64,000 nt of DNA from contig OX457031.1 in NCBI GenBank assembly GCA_949752745.1, positions 5,538,849-5,602,848 of the forward strand, in the 5' to 3' direction. Made by a program: the position numbers and the translations under genes. The DNA is from Protula sp. h YS-2021 (Eukaryota; Annelida; Polychaeta; Sabellida; Serpulidae). Shown here in pieces: positions 43,633-63,300 of this stretch; the stretch's first letter is position 1, and every line of letters starts with the position of its first letter. The notes beneath the pieces were generated by a model. It was not told where the DNA came from. It made no database searches and saw only the letters and a program-made list of their open reading frames with translations.

Positions 43633-44309
43633 CTAAAAATATGTATATACGTTACAGGGAATTTGTGTATCCAGGCAATTCGTGAATTGCCTGAAATTTT
43701 CAGGCAATTCGTGAACTGCCTGTAGGGGTCAGGCAATTCGTTAATTGACTAAATTTTCAGGCAGTTCCCGAATTGCCTGAAATTAGGGACCAGTCAGTTC
43801 ACGAATTGCCTGGAACATGTTTTATAAGAGATGTTGAACAAGTTTTGATGTTTCTTCTATTTATTGCTACATTTCATTAGCTGTTATAAAGCAATAGTTG
43901 CATGTACAAGAATTAAACGTTCATATTTACATAAATCGTACATCAGAAACTCCGTTGACAGTTATTTTTTATCATAAATTGCATTCATCTGCTGGTTATT
44001 TGAACTAAAACATCTCACTTCATTACCATTCAGTTTCATGATAAAAGAGCACTCCGCTGCTTGTTAATTGCAATTGTAACAAGTAATTGTTTATCTTTAC
44101 ATCAATAGTAAATCAAAGAATCAGTAAATTGCGTGCATTTTACCAGGCACTCAGTTGCATAATAGCACTGCACTCCGATGCCCCTATAATTACAATTGAG
44201 TAGGGTAAAAGTGGGGCTTCTAAAACAGGAAGTGACGTCATAATGACGTTAGGAGGTGTTTTAGAAGCCCCATGGGGTTTCTAAAACAGTGACGTCATAA
44301 TGACGTCAC

Positions 44310-44470
44310 TGTGGGGAAAACCCGATCGATAAATTTCAGAGTGCACTCGTACAGGTGGTGGGGGAAAACCCGATCGATAAATTTCAGAGTGCACTCGTAC
44401 AGAGTGTGGGGGAAAACCCGATCGATAAATTTTAGAGTGCACTCGTTCAGAGCGTGGGAACGATCAATAA
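44310..44470. repeat. 47-bp repeats, left arm
   Basis: Units contain GGGGAAAACCCGATCGATAA and ATTTCAGAGTGCACTCGTAC, four copies. A related array is at 45,770-46,040, and mirrored arrays are at 50,950-51,205 and 52,505-52,670. Confidence 0.9.
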
Positions 44471-44639
44471 ATTTGAGAAGGAATGGGATTTTCAGCAGGA
44501 TAAAAGTGTGGCTCCGAAAACAGGAAGTGACGTCATAATGACGTCACGAGGTGTTTTCGGAGCCCCATGGGGCTCCGAAAACAGTGACGTGATTGTTTTC
44601 GAATTCGCATGGGTATTTTGAAACAGGTAATCGAAAGAG

Positions 44640-44880
44640 CGCGCGCCCGTTCAATGACGTCATGATGACGTCATCATGACGTTATAATGACGTCATCATG
44701 ATGACGTTATAATGACGTCATCATGACGTTATAATAACGTCATCATCATGACGTCATAATGACGTCATAATGACGTCATCATGACGTTATAATGACGTCA
44801 TCATCATGACGTTATAATGACGTCATCATGACGTTATCATGACGTTATCATGACGTCATCATGATGTTATGGCATATTAA
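44640..44880. promoter_or_regulatory. Array of CRE/ATF-type sites TGACGTCA, left arm
   Basis: About ten perfect TGACGTCA octamers, plus a similar number of TGACGTTA variants, are packed into about 240 bp. The perfect octamer is the CREB/ATF full site. Further copies sit at 44,232, 44,290 and 44,528. Function as an enhancer is inferred from motif density only; it could simply be a simple-sequence expansion. Confidence 0.6.
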
Positions 44881-45038
44881 GACAGTTCTAAGCAGGATAA
44901 CCCTAAGTCGCCTGTCAATCATCATGACGTCATTAGTCACGTGACCTGTCAATCATCATTGGTCACATGACCTGTCAATCATGTGTGATGTGATTCCAAC
45001 CGCATATGAGGAATATTTTCCTGCTGATTAACCTTCTG

Positions 45039-45123
45039 GCCTGAATGGCTCAGTTGGTAGAGCAGAGGACCCGTAAGCGGACCCATGATCTGAAGGTCGG
45101 TGGATCGAACCCGCCCTCGGGCA
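45039..45123 (+). tRNA. tRNA-like sequence (pseudo-tRNA), left arm
   Basis: A 7-bp acceptor stem (GCCTGAA with CTCGGGC, six pairs), a D arm GCTC/GAGC with A-box TGGCTCAGTTGGTAGAGCA, and a T arm GGTGG/CCGCC with B-box-like GGATCGAACC are present. The anticodon region is about 13 nt too long and contains a partial duplication (GGACCC twice), so a normal anticodon arm does not fold. It is probably not a working tRNA, but Pol III promoter elements look intact. Confidence 0.45.
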
Positions 45124-45144
45124 TCACTTTCATATCATGGGTCC

Positions 45145-45372
45145 TCAATCTTAGAACACCCCCCCCCCCACCGGGTCCTCAATCTTAGAAGACCCCCCCC
45201 CCAGGATCAAGACATGACATGAATCGAACCCCCCCCCCCAGGATCAACACATGACATGAATCGGACCCCCCCCCCCCCAGGACCAAGACATGACATGAAT
45301 TGACCCCCCCCCAGGACCAAGACATGACATGAATCGGACCCCCCACCCCCGGACCAAGACATGGCATGTATC
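45145..45372. repeat. Tandem repeat with poly-C runs, left arm
   Basis: Five to six units of about 40 bp: a run of 8-12 C, then CAGGACCAAGACATGACATG and AATCGGA. The complementary strand has repeated G-runs that could form quadruplexes. The mirror copy is at 51,608-51,845. Confidence 0.9.
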
Positions 45373-45466
45373 GGACATAGTCATATAGCTATATGACTAT
45401 GTAATTGCTATGCGAACATAATTAGTTTCAAGTATGTATGTCATTATCAGATCGTTCAACAGTCAA

Positions 45467-45539
45467 GCCGCGATAGCTCACTTGGCAGAGCAAACGGCTA
45501 GCAACCTGAGAGTCCCGGGATCGATACCACATCGGGGCA
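45467..45539 (+). tRNA. tRNA-Ala(AGC)-like sequence, left arm
   Basis: It is 73 nt long, the normal size. The acceptor stem GCCGCGA/TCGGGGC pairs at six of seven positions, the D stem GCTC/GAGC is perfect, and the loop CTAGCAA would present anticodon AGC. The anticodon stem pairs at only two positions and the T stem is weak (GG/CC), so it is likely a tRNA-derived relic. Confidence 0.4.
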
Positions 45540-46049
45540 AACTTTTTTTTGGTTTTTTGTTCACTTTTATGACTCTGTGACATTATGTGACAACATGTGA
45601 CTGTGACATCATGTGACTCTGTGACATTATGTGACTGTGACTGTTTTTTTTTTTTTTTTTTTTTTAACATAATGGCTATATTTCTATGTCTATTTTCACT
45701 ATTATTATGATAATACTTAATTAGTCATATTTCAATGGTTCTAACCACACAGCATAGGAATAAGTACATGTGTACAGAGTGTGGGGAAACCGATCAATAA
45801 ATTTTAGAGTGCACTCGTTCAGAGTGTGGAGGAAACCGATCGATAAAATTTCAGAGTGCACTCGTTCAGACCGTGGGAACGATCGATAAATTTGAAAACA
45901 TCAAAGGCCTAGACCGTGGGAACGATCGATAAATTTGAAAACATCAAAGGCCTAGACCGTGGGAACGATCAATAAATTTCAGAGTGCACTAATTCAGAGC
46001 GTGGGAACGATCAATAAATTTGAGAAGGAATGGGATTTTCCACAACTCT

Positions 46050-46770
46050 ATGTTTTATGTTATAGTAGTTGGAAAATGACACTTCTAAAGCACATTTAAC
46101 AAATGTAGGTTTTTGTAACATATAATATATAAAATAAGTTTGAACATTTTAGCATGCTACTTATTTAAATGTTCTAAAGTTATAGTAGTGGAAAAATGGT
46201 GGTTCTAGACCAACTTTAACAAATTTAGTTTTTAACACCATATGATATATAAAATAAGTTTGAACATTTTAGCATGCTACTTATTTGAATATTCTAAAGT
46301 CATAGTAGTGGAAAAATGATGGTTCTAGACCAACTTTAACAAATTTTGTTTTTTGACAAAATATGATGTATAAAATAAGTTTGAACATTTTACCATGGTG
46401 TAGTAGGGTAAAAATAAGGGTTCTAGACCAACTTTAACAAATTTAGTTTTTAACACCATATGATATATAAAATAAGTTTGAACATTTTAGCATGCTACTT
46501 ATTTGAATGTTCTAAAGTCATAGTAGTGGAAAAATGGTGGTTCTAGACCAATTTTAACAAATTTTGTTTTTTGACAAAATATGATGTATAAAATAAGTTT
46601 GAACATTTTACCATGGTGTAGTAGGGTAAAAATAAGGGTTCTAGACCAACTTTAACAAATTTTTGTTTTTTTGACAACATATGATGTATAAAATAAGTTT
46701 GAACATTTTACCATGGTGTAGTAGGGTAAAAATCAGGGTTCTAAACCAACTTTAACAAATTTTGTTTTTG
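46050..46770. repeat. 97/122-bp tandem repeats, left arm
   Basis: About seven alternating units share TTCTAGACCAACTTTAACAA and TATAAAATAAGTTTGAACAT. The longer form adds CATGCTACTTATTTGAATG and AGTAGTGGAAAAATGGTGG. The mirror copy is at 49,990-50,930. Confidence 0.9.
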
Positions 46771-46854
46771 ACACGTTTCAGACGATTCTACCACTTGGTT
46801 GGTTGTTGGAAAATGGGAAGTGAAAATGTGGATAGTTATGTAGGAAAACTGCGC

Positions 46855-46975
46855 CCATTCAAAAGACGTGTTCGAATGGCAAGCCCATTCAAAACACGTG
46901 TTCGAATGGCAAGCCCATTCAAAACACGTGTTCGAATGGCAAGCCCATTCAAAACACGTGTTCGAATAATTTTTT
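46855..46975. repeat. 30-bp tandem repeat with CACGTG E-box, left arm
   Basis: Four units of ATTCAAAACACGTGTTCGAA followed by TGGCAAGCCC. The first unit has GACGTG in place of CACGTG. The mirror copy is at 49,797-49,915. Confidence 0.9.
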
Positions 46976-47008
46976 GCAAGATATTACGTCGTGGTATTGT
47001 TCATCAAA

Positions 47009-47407
47009 TTGTTCAACATGTTCAACAACATGTTCAACATGTTCAACAACATGTTCAACATGTTCAACAACATGTTCAACATGTTCAACAACATGTTGAA
47101 CAACATGTTCAACATGTTCAACATGCTCAACATATTCAACAACATGTTCAACAACATGTTCAACAACATGTTCAACATGTTCAACAACATGTTCAACATG
47201 TTCATCATGTTAAACATGTTCAACATGTTCAAAATGTTCAACAACATGTTCAACAACATGTTCAACATGTTCAACAACATGTTCAACATGTTCAACAACA
47301 TGTTCAACAACATGTTCAACATGTTCAACAGGCTCAACATGTTCAACAACATGTTCAACATGTTCAACAACATGTTCAACATGTTCAACAAGTTCAACAT
47401 GTTGTTT
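47009..47407. repeat. CAACATGTT array, left arm (about 400 bp)
   Basis: Irregular 9- and 12-bp units of CAACATGTT / CAACAACATGTT. It ends just before the TATA box at 47,420. Because units are multiples of three, all frames are open (46,762-47,461 plus, 46,984-47,556 minus). These frames are not genes. Confidence 0.93.
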
Positions 47408-47419
47408 TTCAACAAGTTG

Positions 47420-47428
47420 TATATAAAG
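47420..47428 (+). promoter_or_regulatory. TATA box (TATATAAAG), left-arm copy
   Basis: The duplicate of the zinc-finger promoter, located between the CAACATGTT array and the truncated zinc-finger start. It could fire towards the PC4 gene. Confidence 0.5.
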
Positions 47429-47480
47429 CTACGTTTAAAGACTTTCTCGTCATTTGAATAGTGTAGGTTGAACCGAAAGG

Positions 47481-47519
47481 ATGTATAAGTGCAACATTTG
47501 TTCGAAATCTTACAACTAG
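47481..47519 (+). pseudogene. Truncated 5' stub of the zinc-finger gene in the left arm
   Basis: It encodes MYKCNICSKSYN then TAG, matching the first residues of the zinc-finger protein (MYTCNICSKSYNW) at the inner end of the right arm. Homology between the arms stops within about 15 bp after it. It could act as an upstream ORF for the PC4 gene if transcription starts at 47,420. Confidence 0.85.
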
Positions 47520-47574
47520 GCTCAAAGTTACATGCGGTAAAGCTATTTCTAAACATATTAAGACAACTATAAAG

Positions 47575-47582
47575 TATAAAAG
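47575..47582 (+). promoter_or_regulatory. TATA box (TATAAAAG) of the PC4-domain gene
   Basis: A canonical TATA box 55 bp upstream of the ATG at 47,637. It lies in unique sequence just inside the left arm. Confidence 0.65.
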
Positions 47583-47636
47583 GCTGCCACCCTCAGACAT
47601 AACACACATTCTGTATCAAGATACTGAAGAGTGAAC

Positions 47637-48203
47637 ATGTCTCTAGTGAGCGAACAACAGCTACGATCTATGACAACGCCTGTAGAACATTATGAGACAA
47701 TGCCTGCAGAAAATTTTATAGTAAAGCCTGAGACAATACCTACAGCAAAGTCTAAGGCAATGCCCATGGTAAAGTCTAACGCGAAGTCACGTCAGCAGCG
47801 TCAAAAGCGACCACATCTTAGAAAGATAAAAAAAGATGAGCTACCAGCTATGACGCCGCCGTGTAAAAAGCGAAAAATTAAGACAGAGCCTAAAATGAAG
47901 CGAGAACCAGAGCGTAAAGCTGCTACCACCATGAAGAAGAAGAGTGTAGATGATTTACCGGTTATCATACCTATTAATGGAGACATATATATTAAATTGG
48001 CGAAATATCAACAGAAAGTGATGGTTCACATTCGTGAATATATTACGGATCATACATCTGGGAGGTTACATCCTACCAAGAAGGGAATTTTGTTGTCATT
48101 GAACGACTGGCACATGTTGAAGAAGCAAATGACGTCAGTGGATCTCATGCTTCAGAAAATGGATCTGTATAAATGCAGTGACTGTCAGAAGGTGGATGAG
48201 TAG
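47637..48203 (+). CDS. PC4/SUB1-domain protein, single exon, 188 aa
   Basis: I chose the ATG at 47,637 (MSLVSEQQL) over an upstream GTG because it follows the TATA box at the right distance. The N-terminal half is basic and lysine/methionine-rich, with clusters PPCKKRKIKTEPKMKREPE that could act as nuclear localisation signals. The C-terminal part (about 110-188) is a PC4/SUB1 fold: DIYIKLAKYQQKVMVHIREY, then LHPTKKGILLSLNDWHMLKK. These match the family's VxIREY and KPGKKGISL..EQW signatures. PC4 domains bind single-stranded DNA and act in transcription or replication. The C-terminus adds a CxxC (KCSDC). An AATAAA at 48,512-48,517 can end the transcript. Intronless and convergent with the zinc-finger gene, it is probably a mobile-element or virus-derived version rather than the host SUB1 gene. 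Confidence 0.85.
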   Translation: MSLVSEQQLRSMTTPVEHYETMPAENFIVKPETIPTAKSKAMPMVKSNAKSRQQRQKRPHLRKIKKDELPAMTPPCKKRKIKTEPKMKREPERKAATTMKKKSVDDLPVIIPINGDIYIKLAKYQQKVMVHIREYITDHTSGRLHPTKKGILLSLNDWHMLKKQMTSVDLMLQKMDLYKCSDCQKVDE

Positions 48204-48843
48204 ACAGCGAGATGACTGTATACAGTTTTAACAGCATGACGAGCTTAGTGGATGCTATGATTTCATCACCCTCAGTGCGATGGTTTTGAAGCTTGACAAG
48301 AACTTAGCTTTGACTCATATGGACATGTACATTTGATATGTAGTTCAAATTAAATTGTCTTCATATGTAGACTATGAAATTAACTTTATCTATGTTCATG
48401 TGTTGTCAGTTGTTATAAAATTTTAAGTTAAGTTCTTCTGCACATGTATTAACATAATATGTATTTGAAATAGTTTTGTTTTTATCATAATTGTACATAT
48501 TTGTAATGTTCAATAAAAACACATATGATGCTTTTCAACTTTTTATTTTTCTCATACAATACTTGGATATAATACATAATAAAACAATACTTGGATATAA
48601 TACATAATAAAACAATACTTGAATATAATACATAATAATACAATTCTTGAATATAATACATAATAATACAAAATTAACTATAATACCCAATATATGATAT
48701 ATGGTTTACGGGTCAATTAAAACCGTGTCAGGAACCTTACGACTTTATATGTTGCAAAGCAAGACATATATTACACAACGCTTAAGTTAATAAAATATTA
48801 CAACATTTATAAAGTCTTTATTATAAAGTTTAGTCAAATAAGT
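48204..48843. other. Central spacer with poly(A) signals and a 28-bp tandem repeat
   Basis: AATAAA at 48,512-48,517 (plus) and TTTATT at 48,817-48,822 (AATAAA on minus) serve the two convergent genes. At 48,560-48,672 there are about four copies of CAATACTTGGATATAATACA followed by TAATAAAA. The symmetry centre of the palindrome falls here. Confidence 0.7.
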
Positions 48844-49578
48844 CTATTTTTCTGCATCTGTTTCACTCTGTTCATTGTCCATGCCACTTTCTTCATCACT
48901 GCTACCATCCTCCTCCTCCTCCATTTCTAGTAGCTCTTCAAAGAATGCATTGTTTTTCCTTATAGCCGCCTTTAATGCCTTTGAATACTTATAATGTTTT
49001 TCATCAACAAAGTAATTAAAGTCCTCTAAAATCTTTTGATAATGTTTGCTTTGTTGTAGACGCTGGGTATAGTTGAACAGTCTCATAAACAGTTGTTTTA
49101 GTCCATGCTTATAAATGGGTCGAAGGTCATAACTTGCTATTTCACGCGCATCTTCAAGTCCTTGTTCTTCATATTCTGAAACCTTTTCTTGAAATATATT
49201 ATCATAGTCATCGTAGACGTCTTGAACCATATCATGCCAAACAGAGTCTATTTCTGACTCACTTTCAGAGTCTGTTTCTGACTCACTTTCAGAACTCCTG
49301 TCATCAGCATCATCACCACACTGCTCCATATGTTTGAGCAAAGCTTCTTCGCTGTTGTACAATGCACCACATTCTGTACAAGCATGTGCATTCTTTTCAG
49401 CTATGTTGACGCTTTGACTTTCCATAGAAGACTCATCTAAAGTTTCCGTGAAAGGTAGTTTTACAGGGTTTTCCATATCCGATTCTTCATCCATTTCTGA
49501 AGCGTGAGCAACCTTTAAGTGTCTTTTAAGACTTTGCGGCCAATTGTAAGATTTCGAACAAATGTTGCATGTATACAT
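48844..49578 (-). CDS. C2H2 zinc-finger protein with acidic C-terminus, single exon, 244 aa
   Basis: It starts at ATG 49,578 and stops at 48,844-48,846, with AATAAA just downstream on the minus strand (48,817-48,822). Finger 1 is at residues 4-25 (C4-x2-C7-x12-H20-x4-H25, CNICSKSYNW). Finger 2 is at about 67-87 and is C2HC type (CTECG ... H83-x3-C87). A Ser/Glu/Asp-rich stretch (about 90-108) and a helical region rich in aromatic residues (FNYFVDEKHYKYSKAL) follow, ending in EMEEEEDGSSDEE. Fingers suggest DNA or protein binding in the nucleus, and the acidic regions could be activating. The TATA box at 49,631-49,639 and the CAACATGTT array lie directly upstream. I do not recognise a named family. 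Confidence 0.85.
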   Translation of the reverse strand: MYTCNICSKSYNWPQSLKRHLKVAHASEMDEESDMENPVKLPFTETLDESSMESQSVNIAEKNAHACTECGALYNSEEALLKHMEQCGDDADDRSSESESETDSESESEIDSVWHDMVQDVYDDYDNIFQEKVSEYEEQGLEDAREIASYDLRPIYKHGLKQLFMRLFNYTQRLQQSKHYQKILEDFNYFVDEKHYKYSKALKAAIRKNNAFFEELLEMEEEEDGSSDEESGMDNEQSETDAEK

Positions 49579-49630
49579 CCTTTCGGTTCAACCTACACTA
49601 TTCAAATGATGAGAAAGTCTTTAAACATAG

Positions 49631-49639
49631 CTTTATATA
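49631..49639 (-). promoter_or_regulatory. TATA box (TATATAAAG) of the zinc-finger gene
   Basis: It lies about 53 bp upstream of the ATG at 49,578 on the minus strand, directly preceded by the CAACATGTT array. Confidence 0.6.
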
Positions 49640-49640
49640 C

Positions 49641-49752
49641 AACATGTTGAACATGTTGAACAACATGTTGAACAACAACATGATGAACAACTTGTTGAAC
49701 ATGTTGAACATGTTGTTGAACATGTTGAACATGTTGTTGAACATGTTGAACA
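49641..49752. repeat. CAACATGTT array, right arm (about 110 bp)
   Basis: The same array in inverse orientation but roughly a quarter of the left-arm length, lying directly upstream of the zinc-finger gene's TATA box. Confidence 0.93.
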
Positions 49753-51305
49753 ATTTGATGAACAATACCACGACGTAATATCTTGCAAAAAATTATTCGA
49801 ACACGTGTTTTGAATGGGCTTGCCATTCGAACACGTGTTTTGAATGGGCTTGCCATTCGAACACGTGTTTTGAATGGGCTTGCCATTCGAACACGTCTTT
49901 TGAATGGGCGCAGTTTTCCTACATAACTATCCACATTTTCACTTCCCATTTTCCAACAACCAACCAAGTGGTAGAATCGTCTGAAACGTGTCAAAAACAA
50001 AATTTGTTAAAGTTGGTTTAGAACCCTGATTTTTACCCTACTACACCATGGTAAAATGTTCAAACTTATTTTATACATCATATGTTGTCAAAAAAACAAA
50101 AATTTGTTAAAGTTGGTCTAGAACCCTTATTTTTACCCTACTACACCATGGTAAAATGTTCAAACTTATTTTATACATCATATTTTGTCAAAAAACAAAA
50201 TTTGTTAAAATTGGTCTAGAACCACCATTTTTCCACTACTATGACTTTAGAACATTCAAATAAGTAGCATGCTAAAATGTTGAAACTTATTTTATATATC
50301 ATATGGTGTTAAAAACTAAATTTGTTAAAGTTGGTCTACAACCCTTATTTTTACCCTACTACACCATGGTAAAATGTTCAAACTTATTTTATACATCATA
50401 TTTTGTCAAAAAACAAAATTTGTTAAAATTGTCTAGAACCACCATTTTCCACTACTATGACTTTAGAACATTCAAATAAGAGCATGCTAAAATGTTCAAA
50501 CTTATTTATATATCATATGTGTTAAAAACTAAATTTGTTAAAGTTGGTCTAGAACCCTTTATTTTTACCCTACTACACCATGGTAAAATGTTCAAACTTA
50601 TTTTATACATCATATTTTGTCAAAAAACAAAATTTGTTAAGGTTGGTCTAGAACCATCATTTCTCCACTACTATGACTTTAGAATATTCAAATAAGTAGC
50701 ATGCTAAAATGTTCAAACTTATTTTATATATCATATGGTGTTTAAAAACTAAATTTTGTTAAAGTTGGTCTAGAACCACCATTTTTCCACTACTATAACT
50801 TTAGAACATTTAAATAAGTAGCATGCTAAAATGTTCAAACTTATTTTATATATTATATGTTACAAAAACCTACATTTGTTAAATGTGCTTTAGAAGTGTC
50901 ATTTTCCAACTACTATAACATAAAACATAGAGTTGTGGAAAATCCCATTCCTTCTCAAATTTATTGATCGTTCCCACGCTCTGAATTAGTGCACTCTGAA
51001 ATTTATTGATCGTTCCCACGGTCTAGGCCTTTGATGTTTTCAAATTTATCGATCGTTTCCCACGTCTAGCCTTTGATGTGTTTCAAATTTATCGATCGTT
51101 CCACGGTCTGAACGAGTGCACTCTGAAATTTATCGATCGGTTTCCTCCACACTCTGAACGAGTGCACTCTAAAATTTATTGATCGGTTTCCCCACACTCT
51201 GTACACATGTACTTATTCCTATGCTGTGTGGTTAGAACCATTGAAATATGACTAATTAAATATTATCATAATAATAGTGAAAATAGACATAGAAATATAG
51301 CCATT

Positions 51306-51342
<37 letters not shown>

Positions 51343-51446
51343 AGTCACAGTCACATAATGTCACAGAGGTCACATGATGTCACAGTCACATGTTGTCACA
51401 TAATGTCACAGAGTCATAAAAGTGAACAAAAAACCAAAAAAAAGTT

Positions 51447-51517
51447 TGCCCCGATGTGTATCGATCCGGGACTCTCAGGTTGCTAGCCGTTTGCTCTGCA
51501 AGTGAGGCTATCGCGGC
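51447..51517 (-). tRNA. tRNA-Ala-like sequence, right arm
   Basis: The inverted copy of 45,467-45,539, with small deletions and substitutions. Confidence 0.4.
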
Positions 51518-51862
51518 TTGACTGTTTGAACGATCTGATATTGACATACATACTTGAAACTAATTATGTTCGCATAGCAATTACATAGTCATATAGCTAT
51601 ATGACTATGTCCGATACATGCCATGTCTTGGTCCGGGGTGTGGGGGTCCGATTCATGTCATGTCTTGGTCCTGGGGGGGGGTCAAATTCATGTCATGTCT
51701 TGGTCCTGGGGGGGGGGGTCCGATTCATGTCATGTGTTGATCCTGGGGGGGGGGTTCGATTCATGTCATGTCTTGATCCTGGGGGGGGGGGGGTCTTCTA
51801 AGATTGAGGACCCGGTGGGGGGGGGGGTGTTCTAAGATTGAGGACCCATGATATGAAAGTGA

Positions 51863-51946
51863 TGCCCGAGGGCGGGTTCGATCCACCGACCTCAGATCAT
51901 GGGTCCGCTTACGGGTCCTCTGCTCTACCAACTGAGCCATTCAGGC
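51863..51946 (-). tRNA. tRNA-like sequence (pseudo-tRNA), right arm
   Basis: The inverted copy of 45,039-45,123, one base shorter before the T arm. Confidence 0.45.
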
Positions 51947-52114
51947 CAGAAGGTTAATCAGCAGGAAAATATTCCGTCTATGCGGTTGGAATCACATCAC
52001 ACATGATTGACAGGTCATGTGACCAATGATGTGACAGGTCACGTGACTAATGACGTCATGATGATTGACAGGCGACTTAGGGTTATCCTGCTTAGAACTG
52101 TCCTTAATATGCCA

Positions 52115-52345
52115 TAACATCTGATGACGTCATGATAACGTCATGATAACGTCATGATGACGTCATTATAACGTCATGATGATGACGTCATTATAACGTC
52201 CATGATGACGTCATTATGACGTCATTATGACGTCATGATGATGACGTTATTATAACGTCATGATGACGTCATTATAACGTCATCATGATGACGTCATATA
52301 ACGTCATGATGACGTCATCATGACGTCATTGAACGGGCGCGCGCT
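52115..52345. promoter_or_regulatory. Array of CRE/ATF-type sites TGACGTCA, right arm
   Basis: The mirror copy of the left-arm array, with the same alternation of TGACGTCA and ATAACGTCA units. Confidence 0.6.
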
Positions 52346-53505
52346 CTTTCGATTACCTGTTTCAAAATACCCATGCGAATTCGAAAACAATCACGTCACT
52401 GTTTTCGGAGCCCCATGGGGCTCCGAAAACACCTCGTGACGTCATTATGACGTCACTTCCTGTTTTCGGAGCCACACTTTTATCCTGCTGAAAATCCCAT
52501 TCCTTCTCAAATTATTGATCGTTCCCACGCTCTGAACGAGTGCACTCTAAAATTTATCGATCGGGTTTTCCCCACACTCTGTACGAGTGCACTCTGAAAT
52601 TTATCGATCGGGTTTTCCCCCACCACCTGTACGAGTGCACTCTGAAATTATCGATCGGGTTTTCCCCACAGTGACGTCATTATGACGTCACTGTTTTAGA
52701 AAACCCCATGGGCTTCTAAAACACCTCCTAACGTCATATGACGTCACTTCCTGTTTTAGAAGCCCCACTTTTACCCTACTCAATTGTATCAAGTAAAAGC
52801 ATAACACCATACTTGCAATTCTAAACCGTAAACTCCCACAACAATTGGATTGTATTTAATTATAGAGTTTTATTTGGAAAATAATTACCCTCAATTTTCT
52901 TGCAATTCACCCGGTTGGACATAACAGACGCCGTTAAAATCTTAATTTTAAATTCATCACAAGAATCAAATTGCAATTTTTAGACCTGCTTTCAAATAAC
53001 GACGGTATTTACTTGTTGTTACTTTTATAGTATAAGACCTTAACCCCGGAGAACTTGGAAGGAAAATGAAGGCCACTTAATTGATTCCCTACTCCGGTGA
53101 GAAACATTATTGACCATTGACCTATTCCGGAAAATGGACCCCATGGGACAATGTTTTACTCTGGCCATAATTGCAATTGTGAAACATGGTTAGGTAAGAC
53201 AAGTATGCTAGGACCCCCTGTTATATTTCCCAAAGTACATGCTTTAATTGCAATTATTTCGATAATAAAGAAAGAAATTAACAAATTTGACTCTGTTAAA
53301 CAGTTGATATTTTGATAAACAAATTGCCTGAAACGTCTTTAGGCAATTTGTGAACAAGGAACCCTTAAATTTCAGGCAATTCACGAACTGCCTGAAAATT
53401 TTAGTCAATTCACGAATTGCCTGACCTTACAGCAGTTCACGGAATTGTCTGAAAGTTGCCTGAATACACAAATTGCCTGTAACACATATATATTTTTTTG
53501 ATACT

Positions 53506-60648: not shown

Positions 60649-63300
60649 TCATATCAATGTACAGTGGTATTCTCGGTAAAGTGTGGTGACTGTTTGAATC
60701 ACGTTCCACAAGAATGACGTGTGCTGTTGTGTGCTGGTGTTGATTTGATCACGTGTGTAAACAAGGTGCTGGCCAAACGCCAAGTGCTGGAGCTGTCTCT
60801 TATTATCGCTCAGCCATGCCCTGATCTGGTGACACAGTGACATCATGACCCTCTGCTTCTGTCGGCTCGGATGGGCGTCCCCCTCGTCGTCCTGGCTGTG
60901 GAACAAGACGTCCTCGAGGTGGTAGGGACCAGCCCCCCGGCTTCCACTCTCTCCTCCAACTCTGCGTAGATTCGTTCGGTGACGTCGAACACGTTTCCCG
61001 AGAGTAAGGGCCGGTGTTCGGAAAGCACTTGTAACAAACACGTTTTCAGCATGTAGGATGTGATGAAATCTTCGCTGTTAATACCGTGTGCTAGTCGCAG
61101 TGACGTCACATCACGAGGACAGCAAATGGACGCTAGCCGCACGGCTTTGGCCGCGATGAAACCTTGCTTTATGTACGCCGGAAGTGACGTCATAAGCGCC
61201 CGTTCTGCTGTGGAATGAGACACAGCCAGACGGAAGTTATATGGATCACGCCGCGACGTTTTGGTGATGAGGTGGTAATCCTGTTGATCCATGCCCTCTG
61301 GCAGAGTGACACCGGCCACATAACCTGGATAGGCGAAGGCGGGGACGAGATCCACGCTTACCACCATATCCTTGAATACTGGCCCCCTCCAGAGCAAGTG
61401 CAGATAGGAAATCTTGTACTTGAGCGTCAGGGCGTATCGATGCAGATGTAGACAACCGAAGCGATGGCCTTCACAGACCAACTTTGATAAATGTTTTTGA
61501 ATCGTGTCATAGAAAGAGCTAGACACTTTCCTGGCGTTGAGGAAGCCGTCATCGTTGCATAGGTTACTCCAGGGGGACAGCCCACGCACTCGTATCTTAC
61601 CCACGGAAGCGGAATCGCTTAAAATCTCCAGCGCTTCGTCGTCATGGAACACGCAGACAATGTCCACCTCGTCCGGCATGTACGTCTTTGTCCCGCTGCC
61701 GTACTTCCGGCAACTTCCGCCTCGAACCGGAAGTGGGCGTCGGCGGAAGTTGCCGAAATGGAAGCCGATAGGCCGCGGATGGCGGAGAGAACACTGTAGA
61801 GGATCCGCGCGCTTTCCGGGTGCGAATTCGTCTCCGCACACGAGGTGATCAGCTCGTGAAGGTATTCAGGTCGCGGGCTTGCCCGGATGTTGCTGTGTGA
61901 CTCGGATGTGGTTTTTGACCCGGATGTTGTTGTGTGACCCGGATATTGGTGCTGCAGGCTTTCTGGTAATCGTACCACTTTGTGAAACTGTTAAGTCTTA
62001 GTTCAGATTGCACTGTCACGGATTTTGGAACCTTCGAGGAAATTAATGTAAAAATCTCATGATCTCTGCAAGCAACTTGAAGAGCATTTATTCCAGTACC
62101 GTCGGTTCCAGTGACGCTGTTTCTCGATGCAAAGTACATAATCCATGGCTTGACTCCCAGCCTGACGGAGCACGTCAGAGGGCTTTCGCCTACGTAACCA
62201 TAGTGATTGAGATCGTTCTCTAGCTCGGCCATTTCCGTGTGGCTGCCGAGGAGTTGGAGTATTTCCGGCGCGTGGCTGTGAGCTATGGCGTACTGCAGGG
62301 GTGTCATCCCGCGCCATAGCGCGCCCGCGTTTGCCTTGTGTTTGAGAAGAAGCCGCACCTTATCTGCGGAGTTCATGCGCACTGCGCAGTGCAAGGCGCT
62401 CTCCCCTCCCGCAAAGGCGCTGTTGGCTTGTGCGCCGTGCTGGAGCAGCTTTTGGCAGATGTGCGCCGGGCATAGCTCGGTGGCAAGCGCCAGTGTGTGC
62501 GGCGCTGTGTTCACACAGCCCACTGCCTGGAGCAACAAATTCAGGCCTTCGTCCAGAAAGAACTGCTCGCGGAACGTACTCGTGTTGCCGCACTCTCCCA
62601 AAAATGACGTCACAAGGCTTTCCCCTGCATTGTTTAATAAATTCAAACTGGGTTTGACTTTTGAGCTGTGGATAAATGTACGGAGCAAATTTAGGTCATT
62701 TTCACCCTGTCTTTGTGCGGCTAGGGCAACAAATTTGTGCACAGTTGCATTTCCGCACTGTCTTGTATAGCTGAATTGCATCTGTTATCTTTAAGAATAT
62801 GAGCGATAATTGGGGAACAGTCAAATTCAATGGCTACGTGCAACGCTGTACGGCCTTGTAGGTCTTGCTGATTAATGTCACAGTCGTTGCTGAGCATTAG
62901 AATCCGGACCACATCGATCCGTTTGTGCCACGACGCGCGGTGGAGAGCCGTCTGGCCGGCTATGTCCTGCCGGTTTACGTCACATCGGTCATCGCGGAGA
63001 AGTAGTTGCACAACGGCTGTGTGGCCGCGTCCGGATTGCCGCATGCAGCGGAGTGTGTCCATGCTGATCCGGACAGTTGATGTCCGCGCTGGCGCACTGA
63101 GTCAGGGTCTCAGCAGGGCGGGTGTTCCCGCGCGCACACGCGCAATGCAGAGGCGTCATGCCATGCTTATCCTGCAAAGTGACGTCACACTTCCGGTGCC
63201 GTGTGAGTGCTTCCACAACCTTGCCATGATCCCGTGCCGCTGCTAGACTAAGGGCGGTCAGCCCAAAGTTGTCCTTGACATTAACATCGCAAGGAGAACT
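60649..63300 (-). CDS. Ankyrin-repeat / Mab-21 (cGAS-like receptor) nucleotidyltransferase, frame-interrupted
   Basis: One long coding stretch runs from about 63,300 to a stop at 60,649-60,651, broken by five frame changes (near 63,045, 62,770, 61,900, 61,715 and 60,935) but no in-frame stops within blocks. The N-terminal part has at least nine ankyrin repeats (DKHGMTPLHCACARGN, DIAGQTALHRAS, DLQGRTALHVAIE, GGESALHCAVRMNSADKVRL, RGMTPLQYAIAHSHAPEI). The C-terminal part is a Mab-21/cGAS-like fold: the GS motif and first acidic pair (GSGTKTYMPDEVDIV, about 61,656-61,702), the third acidic residue in VVSVDLVPAF (about 61,340-61,370), then INSEDFITSYMLKTCLL. The triad ExD plus D is intact. cGAS-like receptors sense nucleic acid and make cyclic dinucleotides for STING; activity here is inferred. 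Four frame changes fit one-base deletions and one an insertion, so assembly error is likely. The N-terminus is cut at the repeat block at 63,300. Confidence 0.8.

Follow-up and report, generated by a model that had tools for sequence, protein, structure and literature searches.

How does a palindrome of several kilobases, carrying two genes and no enzyme gene of its own, come to stand at many places in an animal genome? The question is raised by a 64,000-nucleotide stretch from the serpulid annelid Protula sp. h YS-2021 (GCA_949752745.1, contig OX457031.1, positions 5,538,849 to 5,602,848), hereafter the window. An original prediction, made from the letters alone, had placed at 43633-53505 a mobile or virus-like palindromic unit that carries a PC4-domain gene and a zinc-finger gene and is either non-autonomous or moves by an unknown mechanism. 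We conclude, at a probability of about 0.87, that the palindrome is a non-autonomous, gene-bearing satellite of a Maverick/Polinton present in abundance in this genome. Since it has Maverick ends and the Maverick footprint, and neither polymerase nor integrase, it apparently hitch-hikes on the larger element.

Based upon comparison with genome copies and reading of the flanks, the palindromic element occupies 44199-52780 (8,582 bp); its inverted arms had been correctly foreseen, and the predicted span was drawn too wide. In the 10 near-identical copies that were fetched, similarity to the window starts at 44196-44199 and ends at 52780-52783, these limits being taken from the outermost aligned pieces wherever repeats split a copy-window match into blocks; in copy L023 the right end is preceded by an additional duplicated stretch. 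Since the similarity stops at about 44199 and 52780, the outer 0.6-0.7 kb on each side is flanking DNA. Terminal inverted repeats are present, with arms of about 3 kb, and the termini read 5'-AGTAGGG...CCCTACT-3' (copy L015 starts AGTAGT). The outer arm block (44191-46773 versus 52788-50186, inverted) is 96% identical over 2.6 kb and is overlapped by a second inverted block (46059-47118 and 50677-49641, 93%). In a base-by-base alignment of the outer block, inspected by eye, 1-base insertions or deletions (indels) make up the majority of the differences; the others include homopolymer differences and a tandem-repeat stretch whose length differs by ~170 bp between the arms. The parts of the element that bear on its ends and arms are:

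44199..52780, no strand: whole palindromic element (copy comparison, flank reading)
44193..44198, + strand: left target site duplication CAATTG, 6 bp (flank reading)
52781..52786, + strand: right target site duplication CAATTG, 6 bp (flank reading)
44199..44308, + strand: left terminal 110 bp, containing GGAAGTGACGTCA; identity with the opening 110 bp of Maverick C1:13591985-13611794 is 97.3%
52672..52780, - strand: right terminal stretch, inverted, 94.6% identical to the end of the same Maverick
44199..47118, + strand: left arm, with TGACGTCA arrays, a tRNA-like sequence, 218/100/120-bp and 30-bp tandem repeats and TTCAACATG repeats, the repeats extending to about 47403
49641..52780, - strand: right arm, the inverted copy of the left arm

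Further copies were sought in the 863-Mb genome to which the window belongs; counts from it are lower bounds, with 40-150 candidates scored per protein or DNA search. At least 150 scored matches were obtained for the PC4 protein (of 6772 first-look candidates) and at least 150 for the zinc-finger protein. Among the 150 scored PC4 matches, 35 places, the window included, show 97-100% identity and 115 show 87-92%. Ten of the 35 close places were fetched with their flanks, as were five more-diverged copies (L029-L032 and L053). Perfect 6-bp duplications flank the elements of the window (CAATTG), L009 (GAAAAC), L011 (TTTAGA), L013 (CCCATG), L015 (TATGCA), L017 (GTTAGG), L019 (TACTTC), L021 (TGCATG), L023 (ATTAGA) and L025 (CTTTTA), as well as the diverged copies L030 (CCATAT) and L053 (GTGACT). 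Together with L027, in which the duplication has one mismatch (ACAGGT/ACAGGC), and one copy without a duplication, this gives 12 perfect cases among 14 elements with both ends resolved. Lengths run from 8,067 to 9,614 bp in nine near-identical elements and are 7,370 bp in L030, 7,762 bp in L053 and 5,004 bp in L032. Multiple insertions with common ends and target duplications, which the original prediction had put forward as a check, were thus found in the 10 near-identical copies plus L030 and L053; they bear out the mobile or virus-like nature of the unit, and the arms do act as termini.

Arms of this kind might also be produced by a mirrored assembly or be ordinary satellite arrays, and the predominance, by eye, of 1-base indels between the window arms is what poorly polished long reads would give. 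The palindrome recurs, however, at many independent sites with unrelated flanks and distinct duplications, not as the single mirrored copy that would have undone the original prediction. Moreover, L017 is inserted in a tandem repeat, the adjacent units of which show, by our reading, the uninterrupted target. The chance of an artefact is accordingly negligible. In L030 the arm sequence is largely different, yet it is palindromic (97.2% over 2.66 kb), and L053 is likewise palindromic (98.3%). L029 (C4:18666500-18676400) contains two PC4 genes and two zinc-finger frames, one of them shortened, in mirror order, and its palindrome seems to have extended through its centre.

Among the open reading frames (ORFs) of at least 90 amino acids in the element, compared with Pfam, no polymerase B, rve integrase, ATPase, protease or capsid gene was recognised; these ORFs comprise the PC4 gene, the zinc-finger gene and repeat translations only, in agreement with the predicted non-autonomy. 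Repetitive frames in the arms were rejected as genes: ORF 46813-47457 is a tandem-repeat translation, and each of the 25 Pfam rows shown for it falls short of the cut-off. The original prediction had suggested looking for larger copies that add a polymerase or transposase, and elements with the same ends that add polymerase and integrase do occur. One of them, the 19.8-kb element C1:13591985-13611794, is 97.3% identical over its first 110 bp to the end of the window element, and at least the first 31 bp are identical between the window element and a Maverick of this genome. The 19.8-kb element has inverted repeats of about 0.42-0.44 kb (93%), a TAGTGG duplication, an rve integrase frame (E 1.1e-6; in this copy the gene is broken up into two frames that overlap), an ATPase of packaging type (Adeno_IVa2, 1.7e-8; Pox_A32, 2.8e-6) and, on the other strand, a B-family polymerase (DNA_pol_B_2, PF03175, 3.5e-9, above cut-off). 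By size, ends, duplication and gene set, the enzyme-bearing elements with the ends of the window element are Mavericks. PMC8097293 gives vertebrate Mavericks common end motifs, (AGT)2//(ACT)2 and (AG)3//(CT)3, 6-bp duplications, sizes of 12.7-24.6 kb and terminal repeats of 46-1,447 bp. The palindrome has the AGT-type motif, the 6-bp duplications and the terminal inverted repeats in common with this group, and differs from it in its length of 8.6 kb, its arms of about 3 kb and two genes unseen in the helper pieces read. Integrase-bearing Ginger elements have TGTNR ends and 4-bp duplications, and TDD-4/5 5-bp duplications, according to PMC2836005. An unknown mode of transposition loses ground, since the ends and the footprint agree with those of a Maverick/Polinton of which this genome has many copies.

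Classical foldback transposons such as FB, TU or Galileo, mobilised by a cut-and-paste transposase of the P-like or another kind, would likewise have long inverted tandem-repeat arms around a short centre. Galileo and P elements have target duplications longer than 6 bp and P-superfamily ends. The 6-bp duplications and AGTAGGG ends of the palindrome fit Mavericks instead, the same ends delimit integrase-bearing 20-kb elements, and no P-like transposase was seen in the element; a foldback origin is therefore disfavoured, to the point of being highly improbable.

Both partners are numerous. The second, overlapping frame of the split gene served as query for the integrase count, and is read as integrase because it overlaps the rve frame and corresponds to 372-amino-acid frames in other copies; it gave at least 150 scored matches of 6319 candidates, at 96% identity or more and mostly in 372-amino-acid open frames. 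For the polymerase piece at least 127 scored matches of 7138 were found, all at 96% identity or more. The end signature AGTAGGGN{12,30}GGAAGTGACGTCA occurs 799 + 796 times in the genome, compared with 0 + 0 for the backward-read control. The first 100 of these 1,595 places, all on C1 up to 48.8 Mb, form 37 facing pairs (neighbouring places within 35 kb), 26 of them with identical ends: 16 pairs are under 9 kb, one is 14.4 kb, six are 17.3-17.9 kb, 11 are 19.8-21.1 kb and three are 26-32 kb. Nine of the 11 pairs measuring 19.8-21.1 kb contain scored matches to the integrase piece, as against none of the 16 under 9 kb, and six of the eight polymerase matches on C1 below 48.85 Mb lie, by eye, in listed pairs, one being the 14.4-kb pair. 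Conversely, scored PC4 or zinc-finger matches lie inside seven of the 16 small pairs, whereas the 21 larger pairs contain none. For five of these seven gene-holding pairs, the 28-31 end letters compared recur exactly in the 17-21-kb class, four of the five variants in pairs holding the integrase piece, and the end letters of the window element recur in that class as well. Three short AGTAGGG-ended pairs of 0.9-1.8 kb (C1:14082077-14082941, 38576310-38577702 and 25683639-25685466) are possibly Maverick derivatives resembling miniature inverted-repeat transposable elements. The motif GGAAGTGACGTCA stands ~30 bases inside the ends of diverged satellites and of Maverick C1:13591985-13611794; we take it to be an ETS plus CRE-type site, which may act as a promoter or replication signal. 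Its count is no test of its presence, because it belonged to the search pattern.

The two arms of a copy vary together. Coupling was scored on substitutions away from gaps in the outer 1.9 kb, because many arm indels may be sequencing errors, in nine of the 11 near-identical elements (all except L015 and L025). At 22 informative sites the arms of the same copy differ in 6 of 198 cells, as against an average of 53.4 under random left-right pairing, and none of 20,000 shuffles reached 6. Over all usable columns, own-arm differences number 1-7 in seven copies, and arms of different copies differ at about 24 sites on average. In these seven copies, with the window and L023 set aside, private variants number 11 that both arms share and 16 that a single arm carries. 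The site-by-site coupling and the private variants therefore indicate that arms tend to change jointly and later drift apart.

The 2-kb centre holds two convergent, intronless ORFs, as had been predicted, with TATA-like and AATAAA-like signals visible by reading only:

47637..48203, + strand: PC4-domain protein, 188 amino acids, domain at residues 117-163 (ORF, Pfam, PDB match)
48844..49578, - strand: 244-amino-acid protein with two C2H2 fingers, C-terminal part predicted helical (ORF, Pfam, AlphaFold)

The PC4 domain (PF02229) scores E 5.5e-11 and 42.2 bits against a cut-off of 25, and the protein matches PDB entries 4usg (E 1.6e-6) and 1pcf (E 3e-6). It shares this domain with the transcriptional coactivator PC4/p15, and differs from it in its N-terminal part and in being encoded by an intronless, multicopy, element-borne gene. 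When the PC4 protein was compared with 5.8 billion proteins, 29 candidates arose and none reached E 1e-3. For the zinc-finger protein, AlphaFold gave a model with a mean pLDDT (predicted local distance difference test) of 62. A profile search of a protein database found 24 clear relatives (E 3.5e-35 or better, 32-38% identity) and one additional doubtful match (E 8e-3); they derive from ENA/Logan contigs of 0.6-3.0 kb that offer no genomic context. Conservation lies in residues of the second finger and in the C-terminal region, the first finger being absent from several relatives. This C2H2 family is widespread, and no library searched names it beyond its zinc fingers. Neither protein, nor either of two alignments, found relatives in a viral-contig collection, and none came from a genome-contig collection or, with the relative P0009, from phages; these misses say little about animals, because the records are, by their descriptions, viral, bacterial, archaeal and phage.

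The majority of scored genome copies of both proteins have no internal stop; among the 14 copies and the window, L011, L021 and L031 have no near-full-length zinc-finger frame. The ratio of nonsynonymous to synonymous change (dN/dS), a simple Nei-Gojobori count on few copies, was 0.47-0.69 for PC4 (window versus diverged L029-L032) and 0.33-0.37 for the zinc finger (window versus diverged L029, L030 and L032). Other comparisons, with few changes, range from 0.24 to 0.96, the higher values being those of the L015 zinc finger (0.65), L031-L032 PC4 (0.78) and L029-L030 zinc finger (0.96). As far as such counts go, the comparisons of the window with diverged copies point to selection on both genes.

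These ratios bear on the rival view that the palindrome is a simple internal-deletion derivative of a Maverick, on the order of a large MITE, with both genes as passively carried Maverick accessory genes. Ends and duplication are indeed common to it and Mavericks, and non-autonomous Polintons seem to be recognised already, to judge from the family name Polinton-1N1_DR in PMC9341505, non-autonomous by its sound. If the name is a guide, that zebrafish family also has Maverick ends and no enzymes; the palindrome has, in addition, two intact genes and near-complete palindromy, and Polinton-1N1_DR is known here by name alone. Against a deletion derivative, passive carriage fits poorly with the lower dN/dS values (some few-change comparisons being higher), and on the listed part of C1 none of the PC4 or zinc-finger copies, 150 scored per protein, lies in a 17-21-kb pair. 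Four Maverick frames (three from L054, one from L057) gave no probability above 5% against the PC4 profile, nor did three of them against the zinc-finger profile, single sequences making this a weak test. A faint resemblance to PC4, seen by eye in the first Maverick frame of L054, was dismissed on the lack of a Pfam PC4 match and an hhalign probability of 0.7%. Taken together, we hold a simple deletion derivative to be unlikely.

For the satellite of a Maverick, we infer mobilisation by Maverick enzymes in trans. Since the satellite is bounded on either side by Maverick terminal sequence, it would be replicated and integrated by the integrase and protein-primed polymerase of the Maverick: these enzymes would recognise the ~110-bp common end and, acting on it, leave the 6-bp duplication. 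A linear molecule with 3-kb inverted ends, if copied by strand displacement, would yield self-folding single strands, and fold-back pairing of the arms, as a hairpin or panhandle in replication or by gene conversion after insertion, could homogenise them. The PC4 protein might coat the single strands so exposed. The zinc-finger protein might bind the repeat arrays of the arms, favouring the satellite over its helper. Dense TTCAACATG/AACATGTT repeats adjoin both genes (47010-47403 and 49641-49765), with AACATGTT occurring 40 times in the element and 6 times in the remaining 54 kb of the window; they are a possible binding array.

Alternatively, the two proteins might restrain the helper, making the palindrome a host-beneficial or anti-Maverick element comparable to a virophage or phage satellite. 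Regulatory-looking proteins behind the helper's own ends are the anatomy that one would expect of it, and satellite and helper are both numerous. This proposal draws on anatomy, and the helper is numerous with many open frames, so any suppression would be incomplete; we regard it as quite unlikely.

Several points weigh against a Maverick satellite. Mobilisation itself is unobserved. The duplication tally includes the diverged copy L032, which has none, and leaves out the diverged L029 and L031, whose ends were not located. The rve match (29.3 bits) is under the Pfam curated cut-off of 32.6, and the second integrase frame, taken by itself, matches nothing in Pfam or the PDB. All six pairs of 17.3-17.9 kb, and two of the 11 measuring 19.8-21.1 kb, lack any of the 150 scored integrase matches, and five of the 14 integrase matches on the listed part of C1 fall outside any listed pair. 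For two of the seven satellite ends, the listed places include no helper with identical letters, and the sole counterpart of a third is a 17.9-kb pair devoid of scored integrase. Beyond about 110 bp, satellite and helper arms have only scattered modules in common; the helper pieces read cover about 7.4 of its 19.8 kb, and the rest may hold a PC4 or zinc-finger gene. As for the arms, the shuffle takes no account of kinship among copies, arms of different copies sometimes differ at only 1 site, and own-arm differences are higher in two of the nine copies (25 in the window, 118 in L023, all usable columns).

Whether the palindrome represents a dedicated lineage of Maverick satellites, with its own cassette of PC4 and two-finger C2H2 genes and a palindromic genome, tracking several Maverick lineages by end matching as a hyperparasite, we consider an even bet. 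Like virophages and satellite viruses, it apparently relies on the enzymes of a larger element; it differs from them in that no capsid gene was recognised and in being known here from chromosomal insertions only. Judged by titles and the beginnings of abstracts, with most subscription journals outside the search, no report of a PC4-bearing or palindromic Maverick satellite was found. PMC10294476 places Mavericks in every mollusc genome that it studied.

Other features within and around the element deserve mention:

45039..45123, + strand: tRNA-like sequence, left arm (Rfam RF00005, 31.7 bits, gathering score 29)
51863..51946, - strand: tRNA-like sequence, right arm (Rfam RF00005, 32.7 bits, gathering score 29)
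47408..47528, + strand: disrupted duplicate of the zinc-finger gene start, situated where the left arm ends inwards (matches 49651-49531)

ARAGORN called no tRNA at either tRNA-like sequence. The flanks, 43655-44198 and 52781-53490, resemble each other in inverted orientation as well, though less closely than the arms do (TTACAGG.AATTTGTGTAT, repeated CAGGCAATTCGTGAATTGCCTG); they are probably an older inverted-repeat element into which the palindrome was inserted. Elsewhere in the window, two adjoining ORFs at 60843-62784 (- strand) encode a Mab-21 nucleotidyltransferase domain and ankyrin repeats, a pair that resembles an animal cGAS-like receptor gene. A genome search with PF03175, in which 89 of 4183 candidates were scored, gave at least 84 matches, and no listed C1 pair contains any of them; they make up a separate group of B-family polymerase genes (C11:15395373, C3:71943239 and others), whose open frames reach about 1,400 amino acids and which apparently belong to other virus-like lineages of the same genome.

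To our knowledge, Mavericks have so far been treated as lone virus-like transposons. If our interpretation is true, they support a dependent layer of parasites, as phages and giant viruses do, and the palindrome would be a hyperparasite of a virus-like transposon within an animal genome, with a logic comparable to that of virophages and phage satellites. It is of interest here for its Maverick ends, its mostly intact genes, dN/dS below 1 in the comparisons made and its many near-identical copies. It would lend itself as a natural test of the cis requirements for Maverick integration and replication, namely some 110 bp of terminal sequence or less, and as a system for tying single-strand binding of the PC4 type to the replication of a palindrome. 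The zinc-finger family, with its 24 clear relatives, may serve as a probe for such satellites in other organisms.

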